Shown piece after piece: positions 16,985 through 40,010 of a DNA stretch of 64,000 bases. The translations under genes and the position numbers were made by a program. Under the pieces are notes generated by a model. The model searched no databases. It saw only the letters and a program-made list of their open reading frames with translations, and was not told where the DNA came from. This DNA is from Sneathiella aquimaris (lineage in GTDB: Bacteria > Pseudomonadota > Alphaproteobacteria > Sneathiellales > Sneathiellaceae). How positions within the stretch are numbered: the stretch's first letter is position 1; every line of letters begins with the position of its first letter. Location: assembly GCF_026409565.1 (NCBI RefSeq), contig NZ_CP112881.1:3417501-3481500 (forward strand). Reading direction: 5' to 3'.

Positions 16985-17287
16985 TCAACCAAACACGCTC
17001 TGCAACTTCATTGCAATGCCCATATTTCCTTCGATTTTCAACTTACCCATCATAAAAGCAGTTGTCGGATCCAGATCACCAGCCGCAAGGGCCTCAAAAT
17101 TTTCCTTTGTTATTTTGATGGTGCAATCTGCTTCTTTATCTTCATTGGTCACAACATTTGGAACAGTGTCCGCATCAACATGCACGATGCCGTCTCCTTT
17201 GAAGTCAAACTTCAATGTCGCGTCCAGACCACAGTCCTCGCCAATCCGCTCGCGCATTCCTTCTGTGATTTCTTCAAGTGTCGCCAT
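16985..17287 (-). CDS. SCP2 sterol-binding domain protein
   Basis: A 100-residue stand-alone SCP2 (sterol carrier protein 2) domain. Seen signatures are the strand CTIKITKENFEALAAGDLDP and the DPTTAFMMGKLKIEGNMG helix-turn, both standard for the fold. Such domains bind acyl-CoA or other hydrophobic molecules in the cytosol and often lie near beta-oxidation genes, as here. The start is ATG 17287, with GGGCTG behind GAAAGGG a few bases upstream; an earlier frame extension to 17320 lacks a good site. It is divergent from the carboxylase operon that begins at 17485. Confidence 0.85.
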   Translation of the reverse strand: MATLEEITEGMRERIGEDCGLDATLKFDFKGDGIVHVDADTVPNVVTNEDKEADCTIKITKENFEALAAGDLDPTTAFMMGKLKIEGNMGIAMKLQSVFG

Positions 17288-17367
17288 TTTTTCAGCCCTT
17301 TCCCGGTCACTGGATATCATTCACCTTGAAGCAAATTTTGCATAGAAAATCTGCTCTCTTTCACTCC

Positions 17368-17396
17368 TTGACGTTAACGTAAACGTCACCTACCAT
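17368..17396 (+). promoter_or_regulatory. Promoter of the carboxylase operon with MerR-type operator in the spacer
   Basis: TTGACG (17368-17373) is followed by a 17-base spacer and TACCAT (17391-17396). The palindrome TTGACGTTAAC + GTAAACGTCAC covers 17368-17389. It differs at only two positions from the palindrome in the MerR gene's own promoter near 40469, and sits at the same place relative to the -35 box. Operator in the spacer is the normal MerR arrangement. Confidence 0.7.
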
Positions 17397-17484
17397 GAAG
17401 TCAATTAAAGTTGTCAGGCTTCAAAATGAATAAGTAGAATAATCTGACACTGGGGACCCAATCACCTATCCAACGGAGCATTAC

Positions 17485-18351
17485 ATGTCTTATAATTCGA
17501 TTTTTCGGCCTGACTTGTTCAAAGGTCAAAAAATTGTTGTCACCGGCGGCGGGAGCGGAATCGGCCGATGTACCGCCCACGAACTTGTTTCTTTGGGTGC
17601 TGAAGTTGCTCTGGTGGGCCGAAATGAAGAAAAACTCGCCACAGTAAAGTCGGAAATAGAAGAAGTGGGCGGCGTTTGCACCGTTCATAGCTGCGACATC
17701 CGGGATGAAGCTGCTGTCACGGAAATGGTCACAGACATCATCGACCAGCATGGCGCTATTCATGGGCTCGTCAATAATGCAGGCGGTCAATTTCCTGCGC
17801 TGCTTGAAGATACGACCTTAAAAGGCTGGGAAGCCGTTGTTCGAACCAATCTAACGGGTGGATTTCTTGTCGCCCGTGAATGTTACACCCAGTGGATGAA
17901 AGAAAATGGCGGCGGGTCGATCGTCAATATCATCGCAGATATGTGGATGTCCATGCCCGGCATGGGCCATTCGGGTGCTGCCCGAAAAGGAATGCTAAGC
18001 TTTACGGAAACAGCCGCTTTGGAATGGGCAGGGTCCGGTACACGCGTGAATGCAGTTGCCCCCGGCTGGATCATGTCTTCGGGTATGGATACCTATCCTG
18101 ATTGGTATCAGGAGAAAATTCTGGGTCTGGCGCAAGCCAATCCGGCAAAAAGAATGGGAACAGAATCTGAAACCTCATCGGCAATTGTCTATCTGTTATC
18201 GGAAGCGGCCAGCTTTATTTCCGGAAGCTGTATCCGCGTGGATGGAGCCGCCCCGAATGCCAAGGGCAATTGGCCGATGGAAGATCACGACAACAATAAA
18301 CCCTTTAACGGTTTTCACCTTGCCGTCACGCCAAAGATTTTTCAAAAATAA
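17485..18351 (+). CDS. Short-chain dehydrogenase/reductase, AtuB/PECR-like
   Basis: A 288-residue SDR with the cofactor motif TGGGSGIG near the start and the NNAG loop. The usual Y-x-x-x-K active site is replaced: at its place is GHSGAARKGM, the pattern seen in peroxisomal trans-2-enoyl-CoA reductase (PECR: HSGAARAG), where the Tyr and Lys are also absent. The N-terminal MSYNSIFRPDLFKGQ resembles AtuB of Pseudomonas acyclic terpene catabolism. It heads the operon with the carboxylase subunits. It may reduce an enoyl-CoA, or oxidise a terpenoid alcohol or aldehyde as the AtuB name implies; the first seems more in line with the active-site sequence. Confidence 0.85.
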   Translation: MSYNSIFRPDLFKGQKIVVTGGGSGIGRCTAHELVSLGAEVALVGRNEEKLATVKSEIEEVGGVCTVHSCDIRDEAAVTEMVTDIIDQHGAIHGLVNNAGGQFPALLEDTTLKGWEAVVRTNLTGGFLVARECYTQWMKENGGGSIVNIIADMWMSMPGMGHSGAARKGMLSFTETAALEWAGSGTRVNAVAPGWIMSSGMDTYPDWYQEKILGLAQANPAKRMGTESETSSAIVYLLSEAASFISGSCIRVDGAAPNAKGNWPMEDHDNNKPFNGFHLAVTPKIFQK

Positions 18352-18380: not shown

Positions 18381-20006
18381 ATGCCGGTCATTCAGTCTAC
18401 AATCGACACGAATAGCGAAACTTTTAAGAATAATCGCGCTGCCATGCTTGAAAAAATCGAAGAGTTTCGCGGGTTGGAACAAAGAGTTCGTGAGACATCG
18501 AATTCCAAAAAAGAGAAATTTGAAAAACGGGGTCAGCTTCTCCCCCGCGAACGGATCGCTCTTCTGCTCGATAAAGGGGCCCCTTTTCTACAGTTGTCGA
18601 CGTTAGCTGGTCTCGGCATGCATGATGATGACGGCAAAAAGGATGTATTGGGCGGCGGAATGATCATCGGAATTGGATATGTCTCAGGTGTCCGTTGCAT
18701 GATCAAGGCCTCTGACAGTGCGATCAAGGGCGGAACGATCGCCCCAATGGGGCTGGAGAAAAACCTGAGAGCCCAGGAGATTGTCCTTAAAAATAAACTC
18801 CCCGTCATTAATCTGGTAGAATCTGGTGGTGCGAACCTACTGTATCAAGCAGAAATCTTCATCAAGGGAGGGCAGGGTTTTGCCAATCAGGCGCGCATGT
18901 CTGCTGCCGGCATTCCGCAAATAACCGTTGTCCATGGATCCAGTACCGCCGGGGGGGCCTATCAGCCGGGCTTATCAGACTATGTCATCATGGTCCGCGG
19001 CGGTGCAAAAGTTTTTCTGGCAGGGCCGCCTCTTTTAAAGGCAGCGACCGGCGAAATTGCCACGGACGAAGAGCTTGGGGGCGCTGAAATGCACTCCACT
19101 ATTTCCGGCGTTTCAGAATACCTGGCTGAGAATGATGCAGATGGTATTCGTCTGGCGCGGGAAGTTATGGGTCACCTGCCCTGGAATGGCTCAAACGACG
19201 CAAATGCGCCGTCAGTCACAAATCATGATCAGCCTATATATGACATAGAAGAACTGCTCGGCATTGTCCCGACCGATTACCGCAAGCCCTATGATGTTCA
19301 TGAAGTCATTGCCCGCATTGTCGATGGTTCAGATTTCCTTGATTTCAAAGAGCTCTATGGCATTCAAACCGTTTGCGGACACGCTAAAATTGATGGGCAG
19401 GCCGTAGGGATCATTGGAAATAATGGTCCAATTGACGCGGACGGCGCTACCAAGGCGGCCCAGTTTATCCAGCTTTGTTGCCAATCGGGTACCCCGCTTT
19501 TGTTTTTGCAGAACACGACCGGATTTATGGTGGGTACCGATGCGGAACAATCGGGCATCATCAAACACGGATCTAAGATGATCCAGGCTGTAACAAACGC
19601 AACGGTCCCAAAAATCACGCTGCATATCGGGGCCAGCTTTGGTGCCGGAAATTATGGAATGTGTGGCCGCGCGTTTGATCCACGTTTTATTTTCGCCTGG
19701 CCGAACAACCGCGTTGCGGTCATGGGCGGCGAACAGGCTGCGAAAGTCATGTCGATTGTCACAGAAGAAAAATTAAAACGCATGGGACAAGAGCCAGATC
19801 GGGAAGCCCTCGGCAAGATGGAAGATCATATCATCAAGCGCATGGATAAAGAATCCGAGAGTTTATATGCAACAGCCCGTCTTTGGGATGACGGGATCAT
19901 TGATCCCAGAGACAGTCGCAAAATCCTGAGCTATTGCCTCTCCATTGCAAAAGAAGGCGATGTCAGAAAAACCAACAAAAACACATTTGGCATCGGCCGT
20001 ATGTAA
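18381..20006 (+). CDS. Acyl-CoA carboxylase, carboxyltransferase (beta) subunit, GCC/MCC type
   Basis: A 541-residue biotin-dependent carboxyltransferase subunit, of the group that includes 3-methylcrotonyl-CoA carboxylase beta (LiuB) and geranyl-CoA carboxylase beta (AtuC). It moves CO2 from carboxybiotin onto an enoyl-CoA. Both oxyanion loops are recognisable: GSSTAGGAYQPGLSD near residue 195 and NNGPIDADGATKAAQF with GASFGAGNYGMCGRAF near 415. The GGAYQPGLSDYV and FLAGPPLLKAATGE wording seems closer to AtuC than to LiuB, but that is by memory. It is followed 17 bases later by an acyl-CoA dehydrogenase and two genes on by the biotin carboxylase. Confidence 0.9.
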   Translation: MPVIQSTIDTNSETFKNNRAAMLEKIEEFRGLEQRVRETSNSKKEKFEKRGQLLPRERIALLLDKGAPFLQLSTLAGLGMHDDDGKKDVLGGGMIIGIGYVSGVRCMIKASDSAIKGGTIAPMGLEKNLRAQEIVLKNKLPVINLVESGGANLLYQAEIFIKGGQGFANQARMSAAGIPQITVVHGSSTAGGAYQPGLSDYVIMVRGGAKVFLAGPPLLKAATGEIATDEELGGAEMHSTISGVSEYLAENDADGIRLAREVMGHLPWNGSNDANAPSVTNHDQPIYDIEELLGIVPTDYRKPYDVHEVIARIVDGSDFLDFKELYGIQTVCGHAKIDGQAVGIIGNNGPIDADGATKAAQFIQLCCQSGTPLLFLQNTTGFMVGTDAEQSGIIKHGSKMIQAVTNATVPKITLHIGASFGAGNYGMCGRAFDPRFIFAWPNNRVAVMGGEQAAKVMSIVTEEKLKRMGQEPDREALGKMEDHIIKRMDKESESLYATARLWDDGIIDPRDSRKILSYCLSIAKEGDVRKTNKNTFGIGRM

Positions 20007-20023
20007 TAAAAGGGAAAAGAAAA

Positions 20024-21184
20024 ATGATTTACGGACCAGAACACAAAGAATTCATGAATTCCCTGTCCAAATTCATCGATCAGGAAATCAATCCCTATGT
20101 TGACCAATGGGAAGAGGAGGGCATCTTTCCAGCCCATGATCTGTTTAAGAAGATGGGTGATCAGGGATTTCTTGGGGTCTGCAAACCTGAAGAATATGGA
20201 GGCGCCGGTCTCGATTACTCCTTCAGTCTCGCAATGTCAGAAACGCTGGGCAAAATAAATTGCGGTGCGGTCCCCATGGCAATCGGCGTTCAAACGGATA
20301 TGGCAACCCCGGCGCTCGCCCGATTTGGTTCGGACTATGTAAAAGAAAATTATCTTCGCCACGCAATCTCCGGCGAGTATGTAGCCTGCATTGGGGTCTC
20401 TGAACCCGGCGCAGGATCAGATGTTGCGGGCATCAAATCCAACGCCCGGAAAGATGGCGACGATTACTTAATCAATGGTCAGAAAATGTGGATCACAAAC
20501 GGCACACAGGCCGATTTTATGTGCATGCTGGTCAATACAAGTGACGGGCCGATCCATTCCAGCAAATCGCTTATCGTTGTCCCGATGGACACACCGGGCA
20601 TCACCGTTGAACGCAAACTGGATAAGCTTGGCATGCGTTCATCTGACACCGCACAGTTATATTTTGACAATGTCCGTGTGCCTCAACGAAATATTATAGG
20701 CGAAGAAGGCATGGGCTTTACGTACCAGATGCTCCAATTTCAGGAGGAACGTCTTTGGGCCGCTGGCGCCGCTCTTCAGTCATTGGATAAGGTCATTGAT
20801 GACACCATTGATTATACCCGTCAAAGAGAAGCCTTCGGAAAACCGCTTCTGGACAATCAGGTCATTCATTTCAGGTTGGCAGAACTAAAAACCGAAGTTG
20901 AACTTTTACGCGCTCTCACCTATCGCGCGGTTGAGGAATATGTGGCCGGTGAAAATGTCACCATGCTTGCCTCAATGGCGAAGTTGAAAACCGGTCGCCT
21001 GACGCGAGAGGTCAATGACGCCTGCCTTCAATATTATGGTGGAATGGGCTTTATGAACGAAACTCATATCAGCCGGGCGTATCGGGATGGTCGATTGACG
21101 TCGATCGGCGGCGGGGCGGACGAGGTGATGTTGGGCATCATCTGTAAGTTAATGGATACCTTGCCCAGCAAAAAAAGAGGGTAA
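20024..21184 (+). CDS. Acyl-CoA dehydrogenase, AtuD/citronellyl-CoA type
   Basis: A 386-residue acyl-CoA dehydrogenase. Standard segments are visible: GVSEPGAGSDVAGIK, MWITNGTQAD, KLGMRSSDTAQLYFDNVRVP, and a C-terminal YYGGMGF. The catalytic glutamate is probably in QEERLWAAG, the position used by isovaleryl- and long-chain dehydrogenases, since the terminal motif reads GGGADEVM. The sequence pattern recalls AtuD, the citronellyl-CoA dehydrogenase of terpene catabolism, as well as isovaleryl-CoA dehydrogenase. Start is ATG 20024, after AAGGGAAAAG. It lies between the two carboxylase subunit genes. Confidence 0.88.
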   Translation: MIYGPEHKEFMNSLSKFIDQEINPYVDQWEEEGIFPAHDLFKKMGDQGFLGVCKPEEYGGAGLDYSFSLAMSETLGKINCGAVPMAIGVQTDMATPALARFGSDYVKENYLRHAISGEYVACIGVSEPGAGSDVAGIKSNARKDGDDYLINGQKMWITNGTQADFMCMLVNTSDGPIHSSKSLIVVPMDTPGITVERKLDKLGMRSSDTAQLYFDNVRVPQRNIIGEEGMGFTYQMLQFQEERLWAAGAALQSLDKVIDDTIDYTRQREAFGKPLLDNQVIHFRLAELKTEVELLRALTYRAVEEYVAGENVTMLASMAKLKTGRLTREVNDACLQYYGGMGFMNETHISRAYRDGRLTSIGGGADEVMLGIICKLMDTLPSKKRG

Positions 21185-21190: not shown

Positions 21191-23161
21191 ATGGTTGCTT
21201 TCTCAAAAATCCTCATCGCCAATCGCGGCGAAATAGCCTGCCGGATCATTCGCACAGCCCACGACATGGGGTTTGAAACGGTGGCAGTTTTTTCGGATGC
21301 TGATAGGGACGCCCCACATGTACAACAGGCGTCCGAGGCCGTCGCAATTGGCCCCGCAGCCGCCAGTGACAGCTATCTGAAGATTGACACAATCATTGCC
21401 GCGGCAAAAACAAGTGGTGCCGATGCCATTCATCCGGGCTACGGGTTTCTTTCAGAAAATGCCAATTTTGCAGCTGCCTGCCAAAAAGAGAACATTACAT
21501 TTATCGGACCTTCTCCTTCCGCAATCTCACTTATGGGAAATAAGGCCGAGGCCAAACGCCGGATGATTGAGGCCGGTGTACCTTGTGTGCCGGGATATGA
21601 AGGCGAAGATCAGTCAGATGCGTTATTTATTCAGGCTGCGGACGCCATCGAATATCCGGTCATGGTCAAGGCCGCAGCGGGTGGCGGCGGCCGGGGAATG
21701 CGCCTTGTCAATAAAGCAGAGAAACTTGAAAAAGCGCTCTCAGCGGCGCGATCCGAAGCACAAAATGCCTTTGGCTCGGATGAGTTAATTCTTGAAAAGG
21801 CCGTAATTGAACCCCGCCATATCGAGATCCAGATCTTCGCAGATATGCACGGGAATGTTGTTCATTTAGGGGAAAGGGACTGCTCCATCCAACGCCGCCA
21901 TCAAAAGGTTATTGAAGAAGCCCCGTCTCCCGCAGTGTCTGCCAGTTTACGCTCGCAAATGGGAGCAGCGGCCGTGGCGGCGGCTAAGGCCATTCAGTAT
22001 TCCGGCGCCGGGACCGTAGAATTTCTGTTGTCCCAGGATGGCTCTTTTTACTTTCTGGAAATGAATACCCGACTTCAGGTCGAGCATCCGGTTACCGAAT
22101 GTATAACCGGGTTTGATCTGGTGGAGTGGCAGTTAAGGGTCGCCCGGCAGGAAAAATTGCCCGTGGACCAAAACGAAATTCACTTGTCCGGACATGCCAT
22201 CGAAGCCCGGCTCTATGCTGAAGATCCCTATAAAAGCTTCCTGCCCAAGGTTGGGACATTGTTAAAATGGGAGGCGGCTTCTGGCCCTGATCGACGAACA
22301 GACCATGGATTGAAGAACGGCTATGAAGTCACTCCCCATTATGACGCAATGATTGCCAAGGTGATTGCCTGGGGCCAAACCCGTGAAGACGCACGTCAGA
22401 AACTGATCCACGCCCTTCAAAATACTGTGGATCTTGGTCTCGTTACCAACCGACAGTTTTTAATTAACTGCTTGAAGCATGAAAATTTTGCTGCTGGGGC
22501 CGCAACAACTGCCTTTATCGACACCTATTTCCCTAAAAAGGTACTTAAGCGCCCGGAACCCACCTCAAGAGACCTTTTGCTTGCCGCCTGTCTTCACTTT
22601 GATTGCCGAAAGCACCAGCAGGGGCTTTCAACAGATGGTTGGGATAGCAGTGATGCGTTATGGGCGCCTGTCCGGTTGAATATTGCAGACAAAATACAGG
22701 ACTTTGAAATCAAGCAAATCGATGAATGTGCTTTGCTCATCAAAAGCGAAAATCAGGAATATTCGGCTCAGTTTTCAACCTCCGCGGACGGTCACGCTAC
22801 CCTTGCCTGCGAAGGACATCAGACCTCCGCGCGGTTTGCCTTTTCGCAAGGGACACTGTTTTTACAAACGCCAAACTGTCAGTTTTCAAGTAACGAGATA
22901 ACTTTGGCGACCGGCGAATCCGAGGCTGGCGCAGGTGACGGGCGCATCCTTGCCCCCATGAACGGCCGGCTCCTTCATATGCTGGCCGAGCCCGGCCAAT
23001 CCGTTACCAAAGGTCAAACCGTTGCCATCCTGGAAGCGATGAAAATGGAACATGAAATTACTTCAAAAATTGATGGGACCGTTAAAAGTATCGCCGCCAA
23101 GGCGGACGAGCAGGTCGCAACGCGGGCACTCCTGCTGGAAATTGAACCGGTGGAGGCCTGA
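21191..23161 (+). CDS. Acyl-CoA carboxylase, biotin carboxylase (alpha) subunit, GCC/MCC type
   Basis: A 656-residue fused protein: biotin carboxylase domain (about 1-450), a connecting domain, and a C-terminal biotinyl domain whose EAMKMEHE carries the biotinylated lysine (Lys618). The ATP-grasp glycine loop AAGGGGRGMR is near residue 160, and NTRLQVEHPVTE near 295. It carboxylates biotin with ATP and bicarbonate and works with the beta subunit encoded two genes upstream, as AtuF/AtuC or LiuD/LiuB do. The stop and the next start are adjacent (TGAATG), so translation is coupled. Confidence 0.92.
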   Translation: MVAFSKILIANRGEIACRIIRTAHDMGFETVAVFSDADRDAPHVQQASEAVAIGPAAASDSYLKIDTIIAAAKTSGADAIHPGYGFLSENANFAAACQKENITFIGPSPSAISLMGNKAEAKRRMIEAGVPCVPGYEGEDQSDALFIQAADAIEYPVMVKAAAGGGGRGMRLVNKAEKLEKALSAARSEAQNAFGSDELILEKAVIEPRHIEIQIFADMHGNVVHLGERDCSIQRRHQKVIEEAPSPAVSASLRSQMGAAAVAAAKAIQYSGAGTVEFLLSQDGSFYFLEMNTRLQVEHPVTECITGFDLVEWQLRVARQEKLPVDQNEIHLSGHAIEARLYAEDPYKSFLPKVGTLLKWEAASGPDRRTDHGLKNGYEVTPHYDAMIAKVIAWGQTREDARQKLIHALQNTVDLGLVTNRQFLINCLKHENFAAGAATTAFIDTYFPKKVLKRPEPTSRDLLLAACLHFDCRKHQQGLSTDGWDSSDALWAPVRLNIADKIQDFEIKQIDECALLIKSENQEYSAQFSTSADGHATLACEGHQTSARFAFSQGTLFLQTPNCQFSSNEITLATGESEAGAGDGRILAPMNGRLLHMLAEPGQSVTKGQTVAILEAMKMEHEITSKIDGTVKSIAAKADEQVATRALLLEIEPVEA

Positions 23162-24316
23162 ATGGAATTACTGGAACGTGCTCATAATCCAAACTTTACA
23201 CCGGAACATCTTGCTTTTCGCGAAACATTACGGCGATTTGTGGAAACAGAAATCGAACCGTTTGCCAGCCAATGGGATGAAGAGGAAACGTTTCCCCGCG
23301 CCCTCTACAAAAAGGCGGCGGATATTGGATTATTAGGCATAGGATATCCAGAGGAATTTGGCGGCATTGACGCTGATATATATTACCTGTTGGCAGGCGC
23401 AGAGGAACTGGGACGAGCTGGGGCTGGTGGCGTCACCGCGAGCCTGTTAAGCCACACAATCGGTGCCCCGCCCATCAAAAATGTAGGTAACCAGCAACAA
23501 AAAGAAAAATACCTGCCCAGAATCCTATCGGGTGAATGGATAAGCGCTCTTGCCATAACAGAACCGTCCGGCGGCTCGGACGTTGCCAATTTGCAAACCA
23601 CCGCCCGGAAAGACGGAGATCATTATATTGTAAATGGCTCCAAAACCTTTATTACCTCCGGCATGCGCGCTGATATTTATACGGTTGCCGTTCGGACAGG
23701 CGGTCCGGGCATGGGGGGCATCTCGCTCTTGCTTATTGATCGGGACACGCCCGGCTTCTCACGTACACCGCTTAAAAAAATGGGGTGGTGGGCGTCGGAT
23801 ACCGCGACCCTTTACTTTGACAACTGCAAAGTGCCCGCCGAAAACCTTTTAGGGACCGAAAATGCGGGCTTTCAAGCGATCATGTTGAACTTCAACTATG
23901 AACGTCTCTGGCTCGCCGCGGGGTGTATTTCTGCTGCAAGAGCCTGTTTCAATGAAGTGGCCGCGTATGCGCAAGAACGTATCGTTTTTGGCAAACCCCT
24001 TTCAGAAAAACAAGTGGTTCGCCATAAGCTGGTTCAAATGGCACAGGCCGTAAACGCATCGCAAGCGTATCTGGATCAGGTTGCCTGGCGTGTGGAGCAT
24101 GGGGAGCAACCGATCGCCGACATCTGTATGCTTAAAAACCAGGCGACAGAAACGATGGAATTTTGTGCCCGTGAAGGGGTACAAACCATGGGCGGCGCCG
24201 GTTATTTAAGAGGCCCGAAAGTCGAGAGGATCTATCGTGACGTCAGAGTAAATGCAATTGGCGGCGGGGCCGAGGAAATCATGCGCGACCTGGCCTCCCG
24301 CCAACTTGGCATTTAA
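23162..24316 (+). CDS. Acyl-CoA dehydrogenase, second in the carboxylase operon
   Basis: A 384-residue acyl-CoA dehydrogenase whose ATG directly follows the biotin carboxylase TGA. Typical segments are TEPSGGSDVANLQ, FITSGMRADI, MGWWASDTATLYFDNCKVP and YERLWLAAG (likely catalytic glutamate), with a terminal GGGAEEIM. It is clearly different from the operon's other acyl-CoA dehydrogenase, so the two probably work on successive intermediates, as AtuD and later enzymes do for citronellyl and branched acyl chains. The closing hairpin at 24321-24344 separates the operon from the convergent EF-hand gene. Confidence 0.9.
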   Translation: MELLERAHNPNFTPEHLAFRETLRRFVETEIEPFASQWDEEETFPRALYKKAADIGLLGIGYPEEFGGIDADIYYLLAGAEELGRAGAGGVTASLLSHTIGAPPIKNVGNQQQKEKYLPRILSGEWISALAITEPSGGSDVANLQTTARKDGDHYIVNGSKTFITSGMRADIYTVAVRTGGPGMGGISLLLIDRDTPGFSRTPLKKMGWWASDTATLYFDNCKVPAENLLGTENAGFQAIMLNFNYERLWLAAGCISAARACFNEVAAYAQERIVFGKPLSEKQVVRHKLVQMAQAVNASQAYLDQVAWRVEHGEQPIADICMLKNQATETMEFCAREGVQTMGGAGYLRGPKVERIYRDVRVNAIGGGAEEIMRDLASRQLGI

Positions 24317-24964: not shown

Positions 24965-25801
24965 ATGACCGAAGAGTGTGTTCTATATGAACGAGATGAT
25001 CGTATTGCGCGGATTACTCTGAACCGTCCCCATGCCCTGAACGCAATTAATGAAGAACTGCCGGGGGCCATCCGACGCGCTGTTGAGAAAGCAAATAATG
25101 ACGATGCGGTTCATGTTATTATTCTGCAAGGCGCAGGACGGGCTTTTTGTTCTGGCTATGATTTGAAAATTTACGCCGAAACCCCCGGCAGCAATCCGGG
25201 TTTTCAGGAAATGCCCTGGGATCCCACCATCGATTACAAAATGATGATGGGGAATACTCAGGATTTCATGAGTATTTTTCGATCCTACAAACCTGTTATT
25301 GCCAAGGTGCACGGATACGCCGTTGCTGGCGGTAGCGATATTGCTCTTTGCGCTGACATGGTCATCATGGAAGAAAACGCTCAAATCGGGTACCCACCAG
25401 CCCGTTTATGGGGATGCCCAACCACGGCGATGTGGGTCTATAGATTGGGGGTCGAACGGGCCAAGCGAATGCTTCTGACAGGCGATTTAATTGACGGCAG
25501 GGAAGCCAAGAAAATCGGACTTGTTCTGGATGCGGTTCCAGAAGACAAGCTGGAGGAACGCGTACTAGAGCTGGCAACGCGAATGGCGGGCATCCCTAAA
25601 AATCAGCTTATGATGCAAAAACTCATGATTAACCAGGCGCTGGATAATATGGGGCTCGCTTCAACACAAATGACAGCCACCCTTTTCGATGGCATCACAA
25701 GGCACAGCCCTGAAGGCGTCCATTTCAAAAAAAGATCCGAAGAAGTTGGCTTTCAGCAGGCTGTCAAGGAGCGGGACAGTAACGAGCCGATTTCCAGATG
25801 A
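24965..25801 (+). CDS. Crotonase-family enzyme lacking the hydratase glutamates
   Basis: A 278-residue enoyl-CoA hydratase/isomerase family protein: ITLNRPHALNAINEEL at the start, the oxyanion segments GRAFCSGYDL and VAGGSDIALCADM. In classical hydratases the two catalytic glutamates sit in GGGCE and in PE; here those places read AGGSD and PPARLWG, so ordinary hydration is doubtful and isomerase, hydrolase or another crotonase activity is possible. The ATG follows AAAAGGAGG. It starts an operon with TetR, two thioesterases and the aldolase, and its stop overlaps the TetR start. Confidence 0.85.
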   Translation: MTEECVLYERDDRIARITLNRPHALNAINEELPGAIRRAVEKANNDDAVHVIILQGAGRAFCSGYDLKIYAETPGSNPGFQEMPWDPTIDYKMMMGNTQDFMSIFRSYKPVIAKVHGYAVAGGSDIALCADMVIMEENAQIGYPPARLWGCPTTAMWVYRLGVERAKRMLLTGDLIDGREAKKIGLVLDAVPEDKLEERVLELATRMAGIPKNQLMMQKLMINQALDNMGLASTQMTATLFDGITRHSPEGVHFKKRSEEVGFQQAVKERDSNEPISR

Positions 25802-26442
25802 GCGATACAGCTTCCAAAACGGCACGAAAAAAAGAAATTGCTGCTTACAAACGACAGAAGATATTGACCGCCGCGTCGTCGCTTTTCAGGGAAAAAGGTC
25901 TTGAAGGCACCACGATGCGTGCGATCGCAACGAAGGCCGGTTATTCCACCGGTGCGCCCTATGCGTATTTTCAGTCCAAAGAAGAAATTTATGCTGACCT
26001 TCTGAGTACGTCTTTGATGCATTTGACGCGGGCCATCAAATTGGCGCCAAATCAAGCCGAAACGAACGAGCAAAAAATTCGCCAGGTTTTTACAGCCTAT
26101 TATCAGTATTACCAATCCCATGGCGAAGAACTACAGCTGGGTTTGTATCTGTTTTCCAGCGGTGAAATTAAAAAACGCGGCTTTTCAAAAGAGACCAACG
26201 ACCAGTTAAATGGACGGTTATTGAGTTTGATGGGCTTTATGGCCAATTACCTGCATCAGTTAGCGGGTGCGCCCCCTGATGTTGCGCAGTCCGAGACGCT
26301 TGATGCTATCACATATTTCACAGGAACCCTGATGCTTCATACAACCGGGCGGCTTGATATTATGCAGGTAAAAGATCAAGAAATGATCGACCGATACCTC
26401 ACTCAAATGCTAAAAAGAATCACCAAAGAAAAAGAAAAATAA
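25798..26442 (+). CDS. TetR family regulator
   Basis: A 214-residue TetR-type repressor. The DNA-binding helix-turn-helix runs over about residues 18-62 (ILTAASSLFREKGLEGTTMRAIATKAG, shown here only as its LFREKG and GTTMRAIA parts, then YFQSKEEIY). The C-terminal 150 residues form the ligand-binding helical domain; the ligand might be an acyl-CoA given the neighbours. The ATG at 25798 overlaps the crotonase stop by four bases. The triple TGAACA site upstream of the operon is the natural operator candidate. Confidence 0.88.
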   Translation: MSDTASKTARKKEIAAYKRQKILTAASSLFREKGLEGTTMRAIATKAGYSTGAPYAYFQSKEEIYADLLSTSLMHLTRAIKLAPNQAETNEQKIRQVFTAYYQYYQSHGEELQLGLYLFSSGEIKKRGFSKETNDQLNGRLLSLMGFMANYLHQLAGAPPDVAQSETLDAITYFTGTLMLHTTGRLDIMQVKDQEMIDRYLTQMLKRITKEKEK

Positions 26443-29921: not shown

Positions 29922-32057
29922 TCAGGCCGCGTAAAAGACCTCGCCTTTTTCGGCCATATTTCTCAGCAATTTAGGCGGCGTAAATCGCGCGCCATATGCT
30001 TGTGCCAAACGGTCACATTCTGAAACAAACGTCTCAATCCCGGTTGTGTGGATCTGACTGATCGCTCCACCGCGTGACGGCGCAAAGCCCCACCCCAGAA
30101 TAGAGCCGACATCTGCATCTTCTGGCGTTGTCACAACATTTTCTTCCAGACAGCGCGCCGTTTCAACAGACTGAATAAAGATCAAACGCTTGATCACTTC
30201 ATCAACGCTTGGCTGTTCCTCTTCCGGCACTTGCGGGAAATGCTCTGACAGTTCTTTCCAAAGATGTTTCTTACCCCCTTCAGGATAATCATAAAACCCG
30301 TTGCCTTCGCGCTTTCCAACCCGGCCCAATTCTTCAACCATCTTTGTCACAGCATCATCACTGGGGGCCGCGATATACTTATCGCCGAGGTCTTGTTTTG
30401 TCTGGTTACGGATCTTGTAGATCAAATCCAGAGCAACCTCATCTGCAAGGGCAAGCGGACCAACCGGCATGCCAGCCATTTTACCAGCGTTGTCGATCAA
30501 CGCCGGGGACACCCCCTCGGCCAGCATTGCTATGCCTTCGCTGACATAGGTTCCAAAAACCCGACTGGTGTAAAAACCGCGGCTGTCATTTACAACGATC
30601 GGTGTTTTACGAATGGCTTTTACATAATCCATAGAGCGCGCCAACGTTTCCTGAGACGTTTCTTTACCGCAAATGATTTCAACCAATGGCATTTTATCGA
30701 CCGGAGAGAAGAAATGCAGGCCAATGAAATTGGAGGGGCGCTCACTCGCTTCGGCCAAACCTGAAATTGGCAAAGTCGATGTGTTGGAGGCAAAAATCGC
30801 ACTATTCGCAAGGACTGCCTCTGCTTTCGCGGTGACATCTGCTTTGATCTCGCGTTTTTCGAACACCGCCTCGATGACAAGATCGGCCTCCCTCAACTCA
30901 CCATAATCGGTGGTTGCGGTAATGCGCGACAGGATGCCTTCGGCTTTTTCTGCACCCATTTTCTTCCGCTTCACCGCTTTCGCCAGCAGCGTTTCTGAAT
31001 AGGCTTTGCCTTTTTCAGCCGCCGCAAGGTCTTGATCAATCAAAACAACATCCATACCAGCCTTCGCGCTGACATAGGCAATACCAGCGCCCATCATGCC
31101 GGCCCCAAGAACGCCCACTTTTGTGAATTTCTGGGTTGGAATGTCTTTTGGACGGGACGCCAGTTTATTTGCATTTCCAATACCGAAGAACAAACTGCGG
31201 ATCATGTTTTTGGCTTCCGGCGTGCTGCAGGTTTTGACAAAATAACGGGTCTCGATTTTCAGACCATTGTCAATATTAACGCAACATCCTTCATAAACGC
31301 AGGACATGATATTCAGCGCCGCTGGATAATTTCCGTGTGTTTTCTCCCGCAGCATCGCATTGCCTGCTGTGAACGTCATCATGCCGGATGGGCTCATCGG
31401 CGCACCGCCGGGAATGCGGAAGCCTTTTTTGTCCCACGGCTGTACCGCGTCTTCTGGTTTTGCTGATAAAATCCATTTTTTCGCGGCAGAAACCAAATCA
31501 TCCGATGAAACAATTTCATCAATAATACCAATTTTAAGCGCCTTCTCCGGGCTTAAATGTGTGCCTTCCAGCAATAAAGGCAAGGCCGCCTGAATGCCAA
31601 TCATACGCGGCAAGCGCTGAGTTCCCCCGCCGCCTGGCAACAGTCCGACTTTTACTTCCGGCAGTCCGATTTTGGCTTTCGGGTTATCAGCGGCCATACG
31701 CCGATGACACGCAAGACAGATTTCCAGCCCACCGCCTAGCGCGGTTCCATTGATCGCAGCAACGAACGGTTTTTTGGAAACCTCCATAGATCGGAACATC
31801 GTCTGAAGCTCCATTCCATTGGCAAACATTTCTTCCGCGCCGTTCCAGCCCTGAAGCATCTCAAGATCCGCGCCCGCAATAAAGTCCGGTTTTCCTGAGG
31901 AAATAACAACACCTTTGACAGCCTCGTCGCCGATTGCTTTTTCGATTGCATCGGCAAAGGCTGGAATGCTGTCATTATTAAGCACGTTCATACTGCGGCC
32001 GGGCATATCCCATTCGATTGTCGCAATACCATCGGCATCAACTGAGTAATTAATCAT
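29922..32057 (-). CDS. Fatty-acid oxidation multifunctional protein (hydratase-dehydrogenase, FadB/FadJ order)
   Basis: A 711-residue fused enzyme. The N-terminal crotonase domain (about 1-190) keeps both catalytic glutamates (LGGGLEICL and LPEVKVGLLPGGGGTQRLP); the C-terminal 3-hydroxyacyl-CoA dehydrogenase has the NAD motif GVLGAGMMGAGIAYVSAK near residue 315 and VVNDSRGFYTSRVF. It hydrates trans-2-enoyl-CoA and oxidises the 3-hydroxyacyl-CoA with NAD+. Hydratase first, dehydrogenase second is the FadB/FadJ order. It is the last gene of the leftward acyl-CoA dehydrogenase/thiolase operon, 15 bases after the thiolase. Confidence 0.92.
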   Translation of the reverse strand: MINYSVDADGIATIEWDMPGRSMNVLNNDSIPAFADAIEKAIGDEAVKGVVISSGKPDFIAGADLEMLQGWNGAEEMFANGMELQTMFRSMEVSKKPFVAAINGTALGGGLEICLACHRRMAADNPKAKIGLPEVKVGLLPGGGGTQRLPRMIGIQAALPLLLEGTHLSPEKALKIGIIDEIVSSDDLVSAAKKWILSAKPEDAVQPWDKKGFRIPGGAPMSPSGMMTFTAGNAMLREKTHGNYPAALNIMSCVYEGCCVNIDNGLKIETRYFVKTCSTPEAKNMIRSLFFGIGNANKLASRPKDIPTQKFTKVGVLGAGMMGAGIAYVSAKAGMDVVLIDQDLAAAEKGKAYSETLLAKAVKRKKMGAEKAEGILSRITATTDYGELREADLVIEAVFEKREIKADVTAKAEAVLANSAIFASNTSTLPISGLAEASERPSNFIGLHFFSPVDKMPLVEIICGKETSQETLARSMDYVKAIRKTPIVVNDSRGFYTSRVFGTYVSEGIAMLAEGVSPALIDNAGKMAGMPVGPLALADEVALDLIYKIRNQTKQDLGDKYIAAPSDDAVTKMVEELGRVGKREGNGFYDYPEGGKKHLWKELSEHFPQVPEEEQPSVDEVIKRLIFIQSVETARCLEENVVTTPEDADVGSILGWGFAPSRGGAISQIHTTGIETFVSECDRLAQAYGARFTPPKLLRNMAEKGEVFYAA

Positions 32058-32072
32058 TGTTTCCGACGCCCC

Positions 32073-33281
32073 TTATACACGTTCAATAATGGTTGCAGTG
32101 CCCATACCAGCACCTACACAGAGCGTAATCAGCGCTGTATTCTGATCCCGACGTTCAAGCTCGTCCAGAACCGTTCCCAAAATCATCGCTCCTGTCGCAC
32201 CAAGTGGATGTCCCATCGCAATGGCACCGCCGTTCACGTTTATTTCGCTATGGTCCACATTCATGACATCCATAAAGCGCAGAACCACGCCAGCGAAGGC
32301 TTCGTTCAGTTCCCAAAGATCAATGTCCGCCGCCGTCATACCGGCACGCTTCAACGCTTTTTCTGCCGCATAGCTGGGGCCGGTCAGCATGATGGAAGGT
32401 TCACTGCCGATAGAGGCAAAGGATTTAAAACGGGCCCGTGCTTTCGCATTGATTTTCTGGCCCGCTTCCTGATTGCCGATCAAAACCGCCGCAGATCCAT
32501 CAACAATACCGGACGAGTTTCCGGCATGATGCACATGGTTCAATTCTTCTACTTCCGGGTAGCGTTGCTTGATCACCGCATCAAACCCATATTGTGCGCC
32601 TTGAGCCGCAAAGGCCGGATCCAGCGCCCCCAGCGACTGCATGGTTGTTTCCGGGCGCATATGCTCATCATGATCTAGAATAGTCAAACCGTTCATATCT
32701 TTAACCGGAATGACAGACTTGCTGAAATAGCCCTTATCCCACGAATTTTTTGCCCGTTTCTGACTCTCGACAGCATAACTATCCACATCATCCCGGGAGT
32801 ATCCCCATTTCGTGCAGATCATATCCGCGCCAATTCCCTGAGGCGCAAAATAAGTACCAAACGCCACTTGTGGATCTGCCGACCAGGCACCACCTGACGA
32901 ACCCATTGGTACGCGCGACATACTTTCAACACCGCCGCCAACAGTCAGGTCGCTTTGTCCAGACATGACCTGTGCCGCTGCCATATTGACAGCTTCCAGG
33001 CCAGACGCGCAAAAACGATTAATCTGTACGCCAGATGCTTTTTCGTCATAGCCCGCATGAAGCGGGGCCACGCGTCCAATAACCGCGCCTTGTTCGCCCA
33101 CTGGCTCAACGCATCCTAAAATAACGTCATCCACCAAAGACGTGTCCAACTCGTTGCGTTCCTGAACCGCTTTCAATGTTGCCGCCGCCAGATTGATCGG
33201 TGTTACCTCGTGAAGAGACCCGCTGGCGCGCCCTTTTCCGCGAGGCGTCCTCACGGCATCATAGATAAATGCTTCTGTCAT
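32073..33281 (-). CDS. Acetyl-CoA C-acyltransferase (thiolase)
   Basis: A 402-residue thiolase. The acyl-accepting cysteine is in [15 protein letters not shown] (near residue 90) and the second catalytic cysteine in [10 protein letters not shown] near the end; [10 protein letters not shown] holds the usual histidine. It cleaves 3-oxoacyl-CoA to acyl-CoA and acetyl-CoA. Start ATG 33281 is chosen because AGGAGG is a few bases ahead and the homologous N-terminus ([13 protein letters not shown]) begins there; seven extra codons exist upstream. It lies between the acyl-CoA dehydrogenase and multifunctional protein genes. Confidence 0.92.
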
Positions 33282-33302
33282 AATTTCCTCCTGTCGCCGC
33301 AT

Positions 33303-34439
33303 TTATAGAGAGCGGCTGATTATTTCTTTCATGATCTCATTTGTGCCGCCATAAATGCGCTGCACACGGGCGTCTGCGTAACTTCTCGCCACGCGATATT
33401 CCCACATAAATCCATATCCACCATGGAGCTGCAGACATTCGTCAATCAGCTTGTTCTCAAGGTCAGAGCACCAGTATTTTGCCATCGCCGCAGTTGGCAC
33501 ATCCAGCTCACCCTTCAGCAACTCCTCGATACATTTGTCAACAAAAACCCGAGCGATCTGAAGTTCTGTCTTCATTTCGGCAAGTTTGAATTTTGAATTC
33601 TGAAACTGAATGATGTTCTTGCCAAACGCAGACCGGCTTTTTGTATATTCGATGGTGTCTTCCAGAACCGCTTCCATCGTGGCGGTTGCCCCAATCGCAA
33701 TTTGCAAACGCTCCCACGCCAGTTCCTGCATCAAGCAGAAGAAACCTTTTCCTTCACCGCCCAGCATGTTGCTTGCGGGGACACGCACATCATCAAAAAA
33801 CAGCTCTGCTGTATCCTGGGCCTTAAGCCCCAGTTTATCAAGATTGCGGCCTTTTTCGAAACCCGGTGTTCCTGTTTCTACCAAAAACAGAGTTGTCCCT
33901 TTGGCCCCCGCTTCTGGATCAGTTTTCGTGACAACAATGACAAGATCACACATAAAGCCATTTGTAATGAACGTCTTTGAGCCATTGATGACATAATCGT
34001 CGCCATCTTTAACCGCCCGCGTTTTCACACCCTGCAAATCAGAACCGGCCCCCGGTTCCGTCATGGCAATAGCACCGATCATCTCGCCGCTGGCCAGCTT
34101 TGGCAAATATTTCTTTTTCTGTTCTTCGGTACCGTAATTAAGAATATAGGGCGCTACAATTTCTGAATGCAGGCCAAAACCGGGGCCTGATGCCCCCGCC
34201 CGAGCCTGTTCTTCCATCATGATAATGCTGTAGAGTTTGTCCGCACCCGCGCCGCCATACTCTTCAGGGATTGGCATACAAAGCAGGCCTTGTTTTCCGG
34301 CTTCTGTCCAGGCCTCCCGGCTGATCTGACCATCCTTTTCCCATTGGGCGTGATACGGCATAATATGCTCTTCGTAAAACCGGCGAACGGATTCGCGAAA
34401 GATATTATGTTCCTCTTGGAAAAGTGTCCTCTCCATCAT
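33303..34439 (-). CDS. Acyl-CoA dehydrogenase
   Basis: A 378-residue acyl-CoA dehydrogenase heading a three-gene beta-oxidation operon with thiolase and hydratase-dehydrogenase. Seen segments are [55 protein letters not shown] and the C-terminal catalytic motif [12 protein letters not shown]. This is the full catalytic kind with the glutamate in the terminal helix. The start is ATG 34439, with another ATG right after it. A TGTTCAT-containing palindrome cluster lies 40-60 bases upstream. Confidence 0.92.
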
Positions 34440-34585: not shown

Positions 34586-36376
34586 TTAAAACGCTTCAGC
34601 GTCCAGCGCCATCATGGTTTCAGAGCCTGCGCTCATCTTGACCAACAGGGATGAAACATCCGGAATCATGCGTTCGAAAAAGAATTTGGCAGTCACAAGC
34701 TTGGTTTCGAAGAATTGTTTATCTTCGGCCCCTTCTGCTAATTTCTCTTTAGAAATCTTGGCCATCTGTGCCCACATAAAGCCCAGTGCAACCAAGCCGA
34801 ACATCTTAAGATATTCGGTTGAAGCCGCTCCTGCTTCATCCGGATTTTTCATTCCCTTTTCGCCCAACATGGCCGTCCCCTGCTGAAGCTTTGCAAAGGC
34901 TTTGGCCAAAGGCATCACATAGTCTTTCATCTCAGGGTTCATCATGTTTTCCTGAATGAACGCATCCACGGGATGGAAGAACTGACGAAGCGAGCGCCCA
35001 AGATTAGCTGGAATTTTACGTCCAACCAGATCGAGAGCCTGAATACCGTTCGCACCTTCATAAATCTGGGTAATCCGGGCATCCCGGACAAATTGTTCCA
35101 TACCCCATTCATGGATATAACCATGCCCGCCGTAGCACTGCATTGCGGTCGCGCTCAGTTCAAACCCCATATCCGTGAAATAAGCCTTGATCACAGGTGT
35201 GAGCAAGCCAAGTGCTTCATCCGCCGCGGCACGTTCCTCCGCATCAGGATGTTTTTCCACCATATCGACTTTCAAGCCGGCCCAAAGACCCAACGCGCGG
35301 GCCCCTTCCGTGAACGCCCGGCACATCAGCAGATTTCTACGAATATCCGGGTGAACGATAATCGGATCGGCTGCCTTTTCAGGAGCCTTAACACCAGAAA
35401 TCGAACGTCCCTGAAGACGGTCTTTGGAATATTCAACGGCATTCTGATAGGCGACCTCAGCCTGTGACAACCCTTGAACGCCTACACCCAACCGGGCGGC
35501 ATTCATCATCGTGAACATGGCACGCATACCTTTATGGGCTTCGCCCAACAGATAGCCAGTGGCATCCTCATAGTTCATGACACAGGTAGAATTTCCATGG
35601 ATCCCCATTTTATGTTCGATCGATCCACAGGCAACACCGTTCCGGTCCGCCGGGTTTTCATTACTGTCCAAATTGAATTTTGGAACAATAAACAATGAAA
35701 CGCCCTTAATACCATCGGGCCCGCCGGGTATCTTGGCCAAGACCAAGTGAACGATATTCTCCGCCATATCGTGCTCACCAGCAGAAATGAAAATCTTCGT
35801 ACCAGTGATTTTGTAGGTGCCATCGTCCTGCGGAACTGCTTTTGTCCGCATCAAGCCCAGATCCGTTCCGCAATGCGGTTCGGTCAGGTTCATGGTTCCT
35901 GTCCATTCACCAGACACCATTTTCGGCAGCCACATCCGTTTCTGCTCGTCCGTACCATGCTTGTATATCGCAGCATAGGCACCATGCGTGAGCCCCGGAT
36001 ACATGCCAAACGCCATATTGGCAGAGCTCATCATTTCGGCCAAGGCAATCCCAATCACGTGGGGCAAACCTTGTCCGCCATATTCTGGGTCGGCATCAAT
36101 GCCCATCCAGCCGCCTTCGCGATAATGGTCGTAGGCTTCTTTAAAGCCTGTTGGTGTTGTGACTTCTCCGTCCTTCCACGTACAACCTTCTTTATCTCCT
36201 ACCTGATTGAGAGGTTGAACAACCTCTTCCATCATCTTGGCACCTTCGCTCAAAATCGCATCAACCATATCTGGTGTCGCATCTTCGAAGCCTGGCAGGT
36301 TTGTCATACTGTCCAGACCCAACAGGTCGTTCAGTACAAACTTGATATCTTTAACAGGGGCGTTGTAAATCGGCAT
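34586..36376 (-). CDS. Acyl-CoA dehydrogenase, large FadE-like form
   Basis: A 596-residue acyl-CoA dehydrogenase with an extra C-terminal domain, the type that acts on medium or long acyl-CoA. Seen are [46 protein letters not shown], and a C-terminal [21 protein letters not shown] that holds the likely catalytic glutamate. The extra ~150 residues after that are helical. It is the last gene in the MerR/thiolase/fusion operon, 12 bases after the fusion gene, and ends at a strong terminator. Confidence 0.9.
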
Positions 36377-36388: not shown

Positions 36389-38722
36389 TTAATTACGCAA
36401 TGGCTTGCCGGTGGTCAGCATATGCTCAATCCGGTCAAGTGTTTTATGGTTCCTGATAAGGGTCATGAACCCTTCCTGTTCCAGTTCCAGCAGCCTCTTC
36501 TCTGTGACAGGCTCTGTAATGTCAGTGTCACCACCAGACAGAACTTTAGCCACCTGCTCGCTAACAACGGCGTCATACGCGGTTGCCCGGCCCATGGTCA
36601 CAAAACCTGAAACCGCCATATCAAAAGCAGCCGCGGCAGAAGGACCTGGCAGATAGGCTTCCTGACGTTCAGGGGCTTCGTACCCTTCAGCAAGTTGCAG
36701 CGCCTTCTTCTTGGCATCCGCAAGAACCCGTTTACGGTTCATGGTAATCTCATCCCCTTCACGGAGAATAAGCTGATCACGGGCTTCCGCCGCACTGGTT
36801 GAGACTTTTGCGGTTGAGATTGCTTCGAACACGCCGGACAAGGCTGGCATCGCGCCGCCGGGACGGCGTTTATTGTGCATGGCCCGCATGACAAGCTCTT
36901 TACAACCGCCAAATCCAGGGATAACACCAACGCCAACTTCCACAAGTCCCATATAACTCTCGGCATGGGCCTGCACAGCGTCTGCGGCAAGAACGATCTC
37001 ACAACCACCGCCCAGTGCCATACCAGCAGGAGCCGCAACAACAGGGAACGGTGCGTATTTCAACTTCATCAAGGCATTCTGGCCTTCAGAAATTGAGTTT
37101 TCGATCACAGGCCACATTGCAGCGTTTGCTGCAAACAGGGCGAGACCGACATTGGCACCGACGGAGAAATTATCTGCATCATGGCCAATGACAAGTGCCT
37201 TGAAACCTTTCTTGTTCAGTTTGGACGCCTGACCAAGCATGGTGACAATATCCTGATCGATCGAGTTCATTTTCGTATGAAGCTCTAGACAGGCCACGCC
37301 ATCGCCAAGATCCCAGATACTGGCTCCTCTATTCGACATGACCGGCTCGTTACCGCGCTTGATGTCAGCGAGTGTCCACGCACCTTCGGCCACTGGCACA
37401 ACGGCATATTCACCGTCCACTGTCATATAAAGGGCATCTGTTCCTTCTTCTTTATAAAGCGGGCGATCACCCACTTTCTTCAGGAAGGCAGGAACCGGCA
37501 TACCGTCCGCTTCCAAGCGGTCGATAAAATACTGTACGCCCATTTGGTTCAACTGCTCAAACGGACCGTATTTCCACGCATAACCTGTTTTCATTGCACT
37601 ATCGATTGCAATGATATCATCCGCAATTTCGCCGACCAGCGACGCCGAATAGGAAATGACTTTTGACAGGATAGACCAAGCATATCGGCCCCCGACATCA
37701 TCTGTTTCAACCAGCGCCCGCAGACCTTTGCGCGCCGCTTTCACAGATTTCAGGTTCGGCTTCTCTGCTTTTGCATATTCACCGGTTTTAAGATTGCGGG
37801 CTTCTTTGGTTTTCTTCCCGCCTTCTTTGTTCATCCGGTAAAAGCCACCCTTACCTTTACGGCCGGTATACCCTTCATCGATCATCTTGGCGATGGTCGC
37901 AACCATCGGGTGATCGGCATCATATTCCTGACAGAACGGGTCACTTTCAGGCAGTTCGTTCAACATGCTTTCGTTGACTTTCGGCCCAAGATCAATACCG
38001 GTGAGATCGCCTAGACCGAAGATACCGGTACTCGGAATACCCATAGGCTTTCCGCAAACCGCATCAGCCTCTTCTACACTCATATCAAGATCGAACGCTG
38101 ATTTGATCGCAACAAATGACCAGTAAATCCCGATCCGGTTTCCAATGAAACCGGGCGTATCGTAGCAGTCGACAACCTCTTTACCGAGGGACACATCGGC
38201 AAATTGACGCAACTCTTCAATAGCATCCTCGCGGGTCTGCTCACCCTTTACCAACTCGAACAACCGCATGTAGCGCGGAGGGTTGAAGAAATGGGTGATT
38301 GCAAAGTCACGCTGCAGACTGTCTGGCATTCCGGCCATGAGCGTTTTCAACGGGATGGTTGACGTGTTAGACGTAACAATGGAGCCTTTTTTGCGAACCC
38401 CATCAAGCTTTGTGTAAAGATCCTGCTTCAGGTCTGGACGCTCAATAATCGCTTCAACAATCCAGTCACAATCAGCAACAAGATCAAGATTGTCTTCCAG
38501 ATTTCCAGTTGTGACCAGCTTGGCGTTCCGTTTATGCATGAACGGCGCAGGCTTCGTCTTCAACATCTTGGCGACAGCGCCCTCCGCCAGCGTATTACGG
38601 TTATCCGCCCCCTCTGGCACGATATCCAGCAACACAGCGGGAATACCCGCATTGGCGACATGGGCGGCAATCGCAGCACCCATCACGCCAGCACCTATTA
38701 CAGCTACTTTTTCAATAGCCAT
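36389..38722 (-). CDS. 3-hydroxyacyl-CoA dehydrogenase/enoyl-CoA hydratase fusion, dehydrogenase first
   Basis: A 777-residue fusion in the reverse order from FadB. The NAD motif VAVIGAGVMGAAIAAHVANAG is at residues 6-26, followed by VVDCYDTPGFIGNRIG in the dehydrogenase; the crotonase part is C-terminal, with ALGGGCEIVLAADA and VEVGVGVIPGFGGCKE (near residue 610 and later), both glutamates kept. It hydrates enoyl-CoA and oxidises 3-hydroxyacyl-CoA. Start ATG 38722 follows GGAGG, two bases after the thiolase stop. The same genome has the FadB-order enzyme at 29922, so the two may serve different chain types. Confidence 0.9.
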   Translation of the reverse strand: MAIEKVAVIGAGVMGAAIAAHVANAGIPAVLLDIVPEGADNRNTLAEGAVAKMLKTKPAPFMHKRNAKLVTTGNLEDNLDLVADCDWIVEAIIERPDLKQDLYTKLDGVRKKGSIVTSNTSTIPLKTLMAGMPDSLQRDFAITHFFNPPRYMRLFELVKGEQTREDAIEELRQFADVSLGKEVVDCYDTPGFIGNRIGIYWSFVAIKSAFDLDMSVEEADAVCGKPMGIPSTGIFGLGDLTGIDLGPKVNESMLNELPESDPFCQEYDADHPMVATIAKMIDEGYTGRKGKGGFYRMNKEGGKKTKEARNLKTGEYAKAEKPNLKSVKAARKGLRALVETDDVGGRYAWSILSKVISYSASLVGEIADDIIAIDSAMKTGYAWKYGPFEQLNQMGVQYFIDRLEADGMPVPAFLKKVGDRPLYKEEGTDALYMTVDGEYAVVPVAEGAWTLADIKRGNEPVMSNRGASIWDLGDGVACLELHTKMNSIDQDIVTMLGQASKLNKKGFKALVIGHDADNFSVGANVGLALFAANAAMWPVIENSISEGQNALMKLKYAPFPVVAAPAGMALGGGCEIVLAADAVQAHAESYMGLVEVGVGVIPGFGGCKELVMRAMHNKRRPGGAMPALSGVFEAISTAKVSTSAAEARDQLILREGDEITMNRKRVLADAKKKALQLAEGYEAPERQEAYLPGPSAAAAFDMAVSGFVTMGRATAYDAVVSEQVAKVLSGGDTDITEPVTEKRLLELEQEGFMTLIRNHKTLDRIEHMLTTGKPLRN

Positions 38723-38724
38723 GA

Positions 38725-39861
38725 TTAGCAAGCCTCCAGAACAGTCGCGATCCCCTGACCACCACCGATACATTGTGTTGCAAGACCCAGGGATTTATCT
38801 TCACGCTGCAGCAGGCTTGCAACCTTACCCGTGATCCGGGCGCCGGTTGCCCCCATTGGATGGCCCAACGCAATGGCACCACCGTCAAGGTTTGTGTTGT
38901 CGTATTTCATACCGGATTCTTTAAGTACCGCCAAAGACTGAGCCGCGAACGCTTCGTTCAGTTCGATAATATCGATGTCCTGCAAAGTAAGACCTGCCCG
39001 TTTAAGCGCTTTTTCAGTTGCCGGAACCGGGCCAATCCCCATAATTTCAGGAGCACATCCTGCAACGGCGATGGATTTAATCCGTGCCATTTTAACAAGG
39101 CCGTTTGCGTCCGCATATTCTTCTGAACAAACAAGCGTCGCAGACGCGCCGTCCGTCAATGGAGAAGATGTTGCCGCTGTGACAGTGCCCGCTTCGTCAA
39201 AAGCAGGCTTCAGGCCAGCAAGTGTTTCCAAAGTGGTTTCCGGACGGATACAGCCATCCTGTTCAACCCGAATATTTCCCTGAACGATTGGAATAATTTC
39301 GTCATCGAATTTCCCAGCAGCCCGGGCTGCCGCCGCACGGGCGTGGCTTTCCACTGCCATTTCTTCCTGCTCCTGGCGAGAAATGGAATATTGCTTGGCA
39401 AGATTTTCGGCCGTAATCCCCATGGAAACATACGCTTCTGGATATTCTTTATACAGAGCCGGATGAGGCGCAGGATTAAAGCCGCCCATTGGAACCCGTG
39501 TCATGCTCTCGATGCCGCCACAAATAAACACGTCGCCCGCGCCCATCTGAATTGATCCAGCGGCCATGTGAATAGCCTGCATTGAAGAGCCACAGAACCG
39601 GTTCACGGTTGTTGCTGCAGCCGATTTTGGAATGCCTGCAAGAAAGCTGATGATACGAGCGACATTGAGGCCCTGCTCACCTTCCGGGAAAGCACTACCA
39701 ATGATGACATCTTCAATATCCTGAACATTTACGCCGCTTTTCTCGATCAGCCCCTTAACAACCTGACCGGTCATTTCATCGGGTCTGATTCTAACCATTT
39801 CCCCTTTATTCGCGAGGGTAAATGGAGAACGAGCGTATCCTGCGATGACCACGTTTTTCAT
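38725..39861 (-). CDS. Acetyl-CoA C-acyltransferase (thiolase)
   Basis: A 378-residue thiolase. Catalytic cysteines are in NRFCGSSMQAIHMAA (near residue 87) and CIGGGQGIATV at the C-terminus, with the GHPMGATGAR histidine motif between. It gives the last step of beta-oxidation. It is the first enzyme gene after the MerR regulator, about 150 bases downstream of it, and is followed immediately by the dehydrogenase-hydratase fusion. The gap before it has a nested hairpin. Confidence 0.92.
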   Translation of the reverse strand: MKNVVIAGYARSPFTLANKGEMVRIRPDEMTGQVVKGLIEKSGVNVQDIEDVIIGSAFPEGEQGLNVARIISFLAGIPKSAAATTVNRFCGSSMQAIHMAAGSIQMGAGDVFICGGIESMTRVPMGGFNPAPHPALYKEYPEAYVSMGITAENLAKQYSISRQEQEEMAVESHARAAAARAAGKFDDEIIPIVQGNIRVEQDGCIRPETTLETLAGLKPAFDEAGTVTAATSSPLTDGASATLVCSEEYADANGLVKMARIKSIAVAGCAPEIMGIGPVPATEKALKRAGLTLQDIDIIELNEAFAAQSLAVLKESGMKYDNTNLDGGAIALGHPMGATGARITGKVASLLQREDKSLGLATQCIGGGQGIATVLEAC

Positions 39862-39949
39862 GATCTAAATTTCCTTTCAGACATTTCATATTCCGCCTAC
39901 CCTGTCTGGAGACGGATTTAAAGGTGACAATTTTCTTATCTTTTATGCC

Positions 39950-39993
39950 CCCGACAGACCCTCTCTATGGAGGGACGTATGGCAGCTGTCGGG
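39950..39993. promoter_or_regulatory. Nested stem-loop in the MerR-thiolase gap
   Basis: CCCGACAG (39950-39957) pairs with CTGTCGGG (39986-39993), enclosing a second stem CCCTC (39959-39963) with GAGGG (39970-39974). No T run follows on the minus strand, so it is not a plain terminator. It may be an mRNA processing or stability element in the intercistronic region. Confidence 0.4.
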
Positions 39994-40010
39994 AAAATCT
40001 AATTTGTTGG

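Follow-up and report, generated by a model that had tools for sequence, protein, structure and literature searches.

The promoter of a carboxylase operon in Sneathiella aquimaris carries a palindrome closely resembling the one in front of a merR gene of the same region, which raises the question of whether one regulator governs both. In the window (the whole 64,000-nucleotide stretch analysed; NZ_CP112881.1, positions 3,417,501 to 3,481,500), the 22-bp palindromes TTGACGTTAACGTAAACGTCAC (17368-17389) and TTGACGTTTACGTAAACGTCAA (40469-40490) differ at two of 22 positions, exactly as the first-pass annotation had stated. With up to three mismatches, their 20-bp core was found in the window only at these two boxes and in a degraded tandem copy (40492-40511), while 100 dinucleotide shuffles of the window yielded zero matches. 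On the evidence of sequence, a single LiuR-like MerR very probably controls both the carboxylase and the fad operons. There are strong grounds for reading the 17368 palindrome as the operator of the MerR encoded at 40011-40424, whose own promoter carries the same box and which is most likely a repressor released by an acyl-CoA (Table 1).

Table 1. Boxes, promoter elements and genes at the two loci (window coordinates).
Feature	Position	Strand	Evidence or remark
Divergent gene for an SCP2 sterol-carrier-like protein	16985-17320	-	PF02036
Predicted operator box before the carboxylase (atu-like) operon	17368-17389	+	TTGACGTTAACGTAAACGTCAC; kept at the same promoter in 20/22 listed relatives
Putative -10, TACCAT, 17 bp from the in-box TTGACG	17391-17396	+	Partial conservation in the genus
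Conserved TTGAC(A/T); may serve the divergent SCP2 gene as a -35	17399-17404	-	20/20 relatives
SDR oxidoreductase, first gene of the operon	17485-18351	+	
Geranyl-CoA carboxylase-type beta subunit (AtuC-like)	18381-20006	+	Bit scores and selectivity residue
Acyl-CoA dehydrogenase	19997-21184	+	
Biotin-carboxylase alpha subunit	21191-23161	+	
Acyl-CoA dehydrogenase, second in the carboxylase operon	23162-24316	+	
TetR gene within the carboxylase cluster	25798-26442		
Acyl-CoA dehydrogenase, thiolase and second FadB/FadJ-type gene (cluster continues)	29922-34439	-	
Acyl-CoA dehydrogenase (FadE type, 596 aa)	34586-36376	-	
3-Hydroxyacyl-CoA dehydrogenase/enoyl-CoA hydratase (FadB type)	36389-38773	-	
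FadA-type thiolase, next after merR	38725-39861	-	
LiuR-like MerR regulator, 137 aa	40011-40424	-	PF13411 and PF09278; tree
merR -10, TATAGT, 17-bp spacer	40462-40467	-	Mean 4.82 of 6 in 22 promoters; spacer of 17 only
Predicted operator box between the merR -35 and -10	40469-40490	-	TTGACGTTTACGTAAACGTCAA; upstream of merR in 22/22 relatives with sequence there
Degraded tandem copy of the box, 22 bp farther upstream of merR	40491-40512	-	Exact 16-nt repeat at 40497-40512

Each box is embedded in a putative promoter. At 17368 the plus strand reads TTGACG-17 bp-TACCAT, and the earlier description of a box that starts at a TTGACG -35 and fills a 17-base spacer held as given; at 40469, the strand had to be corrected, as the true promoter lies on the minus strand (TTGACG from 40490, 17 bp, then TATAGT at 40467-40462) and the plus strand has no -10 downstream. 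Across the 22 merR promoters compared, a good -10 occurs only at a distance of 17 bp from the in-box TTGACG. At the carboxylase promoter, about ten relatives of the carboxylase-bearing branch keep TACCAT or something close to it, which the other branch lacks. A second candidate promoter of the carboxylase operon, TTGTCA-18-TAGAAT (17411-17440), was dropped, showing no conservation in relatives. The spacing of the tandem merR boxes, 22 bp apart, suggests two dimers side by side. Comparable second copies, at the same spacing, occur in about seven relatives.

At its own promoter, in front of merR-fadA-fadB-fadE, MerR would thus occupy the 17-bp spacer, and it most likely represses, its place being between an optimally spaced -35 and -10. 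Such a spacer needs no untwisting, so that occlusion or repression fits best, and its length suggests repression over activation of the MerR type. The alternative, that MerR binds the box as a classical activator that twists the promoter, draws on its family membership and on the position of the box between -35 and -10. However, MerR-type activators use spacers of 19-20 bp, whereas that of the merR promoter, at 17 bp, is already optimal. Moreover, the protein has a single cysteine (position 90), hence no MerR-type metal site, and LiuR has been described as a repressor (PMC3223726). Activation is accordingly considered improbable.

The carboxylase box may serve more than one promoter. Alignment of 21 carboxylase promoters revealed only two conserved elements, the box and a GTCAA element. 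The latter, read on the opposite strand as TTGAC(A/T), lies ~18 bp from the core, its offset in all 20 relatives being identical or shifted by a single base (mean of 5.3 of 6 matches). The divergent SCP2 gene may use it as its -35, together with a -10 inside the box, where a weak candidate (TACGTT, 17381-17376) is found. With the SCP2 -10 so placed, one operator could cover two promoters, and the 17368 box may therefore also cover that of the SCP2 gene.

The carboxylase beta subunit scores 791 bits against the geranyl-CoA carboxylase (GCC) beta subunit 5ikl versus 543 against MCC beta, and has Gly where MCC has Phe191, without a three-residue insertion (EIFIK---GGQGF, the MCC counterpart being DREHFGRIF); both the Phe and the insertion are retained in the MCC paralogue of the genome. 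Gly and the missing three-residue insertion set the larger substrate pocket of geranyl-CoA carboxylase (PMC4673880). By its residues, the window carboxylase thus bears the geranyl-CoA carboxylase signature. In part of the genus (eight loci), the GCC beta gene is gone from the operon, and in some of these genomes an alpha-type gene still adjoins the dehydrogenase. The box still precedes the SDR gene in this part of the genus.

At the fad cluster, control would run via merR as the first gene of the operon, which carries no separate box for fad; we infer co-transcription from this arrangement, and a search of the merR-fadA gap found no terminator-like site. The 149-base gap (39862-40010, minus strand) contains an inverted repeat, CCCGACAG...CTGTCGGG, and its folding is slightly more stable than that of shuffled versions (z of -1.97); attenuation or RNA processing at this repeat is possible. 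MerR of this type is encoded once in the genome, the next best paralogue sharing 33-44% identity.

Sites across the complete 3.94-Mb Sneathiella genome were counted by pattern search with a 16-bp core at up to two mismatches. Five were found: two at merR, the one at 17368, and those at 1450290 and 1442028. The weak 1442028 site lies inside coding sequence and was rejected as a target, leaving only three strong target loci outside coding sequence, namely merR, the carboxylase operon and a diiron-oxygenase-like gene, the 1450290 site preceding a gene for a 367-aa AurF-like diiron protein. As a control, the reversed pattern gave 42 matches at up to three mismatches versus 10 for the real motif, which shows how seldom the latter occurs in this genome. 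The genome's true MCC lies elsewhere, at 1.40 Mb, accompanied by HMG-lyase and isovaleryl-CoA-dehydrogenase-like genes, and this 19-kb leucine (liu) region with its IVD-like, MCC and HMG-lyase genes contains no box at up to four mismatches. The predicted regulon thus gains a third site, at the diiron protein gene, and the leucine operon is outside it. An MBL-fold gene was also expected as a target in the window's genome, but the box is lost there.

The same sites recur in the order (26 genomes). A single MerR orthologue was found in 24 of the 26 genomes, and one to four boxes per genome at up to one mismatch; those inspected belong to four targets, which are merR, the first (SDR) gene of the carboxylase operon, the AurF-like gene and a gene for an MBL-fold hydrolase. 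In S. chinensis, two boxes with two mismatches each lie upstream of merR. Both relatives without the carboxylase-operon box, among the 22 listed, are incomplete genomes, and the AurF-like gene likewise has its box in 20 of 22. The MBL-fold gene is variable, with the box in 11 genomes at up to one mismatch and in more at two. No genome of the order lacks the hydrolase gene itself (L152; G000 2757531-2758571). The AurF-like/aldehyde-oxygenase-like diiron protein (L005:4141-5244) is a conserved member of the putative regulon in the order, and other alphaproteobacteria often have several AurF-like copies.

The association extends to other alphaproteobacterial families. A search of 386 genomes of the class for GCC-like beta genes outside Sneathiella returned 27 loci with DNA, of which 13, from six other families, have the box at the GCC operon within two mismatches (11 within one), and about half of the 27 have no detectable box. 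As an internal contrast, only two of 26 AurF-like loci outside the order have it (up to two mismatches). Genome scans of four of these other genomes gave a shared set of merR, the SDR-GCC operon and an MBL gene, here located behind an acyl-CoA dehydrogenase. Genome G131 has GCC, no MerR match at E<=1e-22 and no box anywhere in the genome. Some of the genomes whose GCC locus lacks the box do carry a more distant MerR, among them G091, in which the genome scan showed no canonical box. In betaproteobacteria, related MBL genes lie divergent to LiuR (five loci).

These distributions bear on a second alternative, in which each box has its own regulator, for example the TetR of the cluster at 17368 and MerR at 40469. 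That a TetR gene is located inside the carboxylase cluster, and that the Pseudomonas atu genes are under repression by the TetR-family AtuR (PMC4847356), would accord with it. Yet one and the same 16-20-bp core marks merR, the diiron and MBL genes and the carboxylase operon in different genomes, and G131, which has GCC, lacks the MerR match and the box alike. Separate regulators are thus very unlikely. Weighing against a single MerR are the missing box at about half of the GCC loci in other families, the partial conservation of the carboxylase -10, and the cluster TetR, which might act as an additional regulator or even as the principal one. By contrast, the co-occurrence of the boxes across the order and other families, and a sole MerR paralogue of this type, support the inference of one regulator at both sites; the first-pass proposal of a shared MerR gained from these observations and from G131. 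Chance or shared-ancestry resemblance without function, for which no supporting point was found, can be dismissed given the empty window shuffles, the reversed-pattern controls, a promoter alignment that conserves almost nothing but the box, and conservation across families.

Under control by one MerR, then, the protein would bind both its own promoter and the carboxylase-operon box, reaching there the conserved divergent element beside the SCP2 gene. An acyl-CoA intermediate, the natural guess for a ligand, would release it, and genes for the breakdown of straight-chain fatty acids and of geranyl- or methyl-branched acyl-CoA would be induced together. Terpene-type acyl-CoA carboxylation would then be under the same predicted switch as fatty-acid oxidation, in a small and sharply defined regulon with three target loci in the whole genome. 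Two uncharacterised genes, encoding the AurF-like diiron protein and the MBL-fold hydrolase, would be assigned to the pathway by their regulation. In a broader form, we lean slightly towards a fad-linked LiuR-type MerR, rather than an AtuR-type TetR, governing GCC operons together with the MBL-fold and diiron genes across several alphaproteobacterial families; if true, terpene and branched acyl-CoA catabolism would be wired to ordinary beta-oxidation.

The identity of the regulator was examined in a tree of 53 regulators, which splits into liu-linked and fad-linked members with 99/98 support. The Sneathiella MerR falls on the fad-linked side, among alphaproteobacterial orthologues beside fad genes, and outside the liu-linked clade. 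Liu-linked members of beta- and gammaproteobacteria were retrieved alongside it at ~50% identity; its DNA-binding half is 65-66% identical to both groups, and the C-terminal half diverges. The ACGTTTACGTAAACGT core precedes three of the liu-linked regulators, so the same box occurs on both sides of the tree. Clade position, shared box and similarity of the DNA-binding half thus mark the Sneathiella MerR as a LiuR relative by descent and predicted operator, and not as a regulator of leucine breakdown here.

The system is therefore of a known kind, the LiuR-type MerR regulon. LiuR is a MerR-family repressor (PMC3223726), with a regulon for branched-chain amino acid use in Shewanella, Pseudomonas and Rhodospirillum rubrum (PMC3223726, PMC5343134, PMC7238569). 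Both have a homologous regulator, the same palindrome before the regulator gene and autoregulation, here predicted. In contrast, the Sneathiella regulator belongs to the fad-linked sister clade, the leucine operon has no box, and the predicted targets are the fad, geranyl-CoA carboxylase and diiron-protein genes, with the MBL-fold gene in relatives. What may be new is the combination of predicted targets, in which geranyl-CoA carboxylase is joined by the SCP2, diiron and MBL genes and liu is absent. The Pseudomonas atu operon answers to the TetR-family repressor AtuR, which binds 13-bp inverted repeats between atuA and atuR (PMC4847356). Geranyl-CoA carboxylase genes are under control there as in the proposed system, but AtuR is of the TetR family, whereas Sneathiella has a MerR-type box and another gene order. 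Kazakov et al. (2009) reportedly predicted that LiuR orthologues control fatty-acid degradation in alphaproteobacteria, and here too, in an alphaproteobacterium, a MerR gene leads a fatty-acid breakdown operon. Located beside fad genes, alphaproteobacterial and in the same clade as the fad-linked orthologues, the Sneathiella MerR most likely belongs to the same group as those fatty-acid LiuR orthologues.
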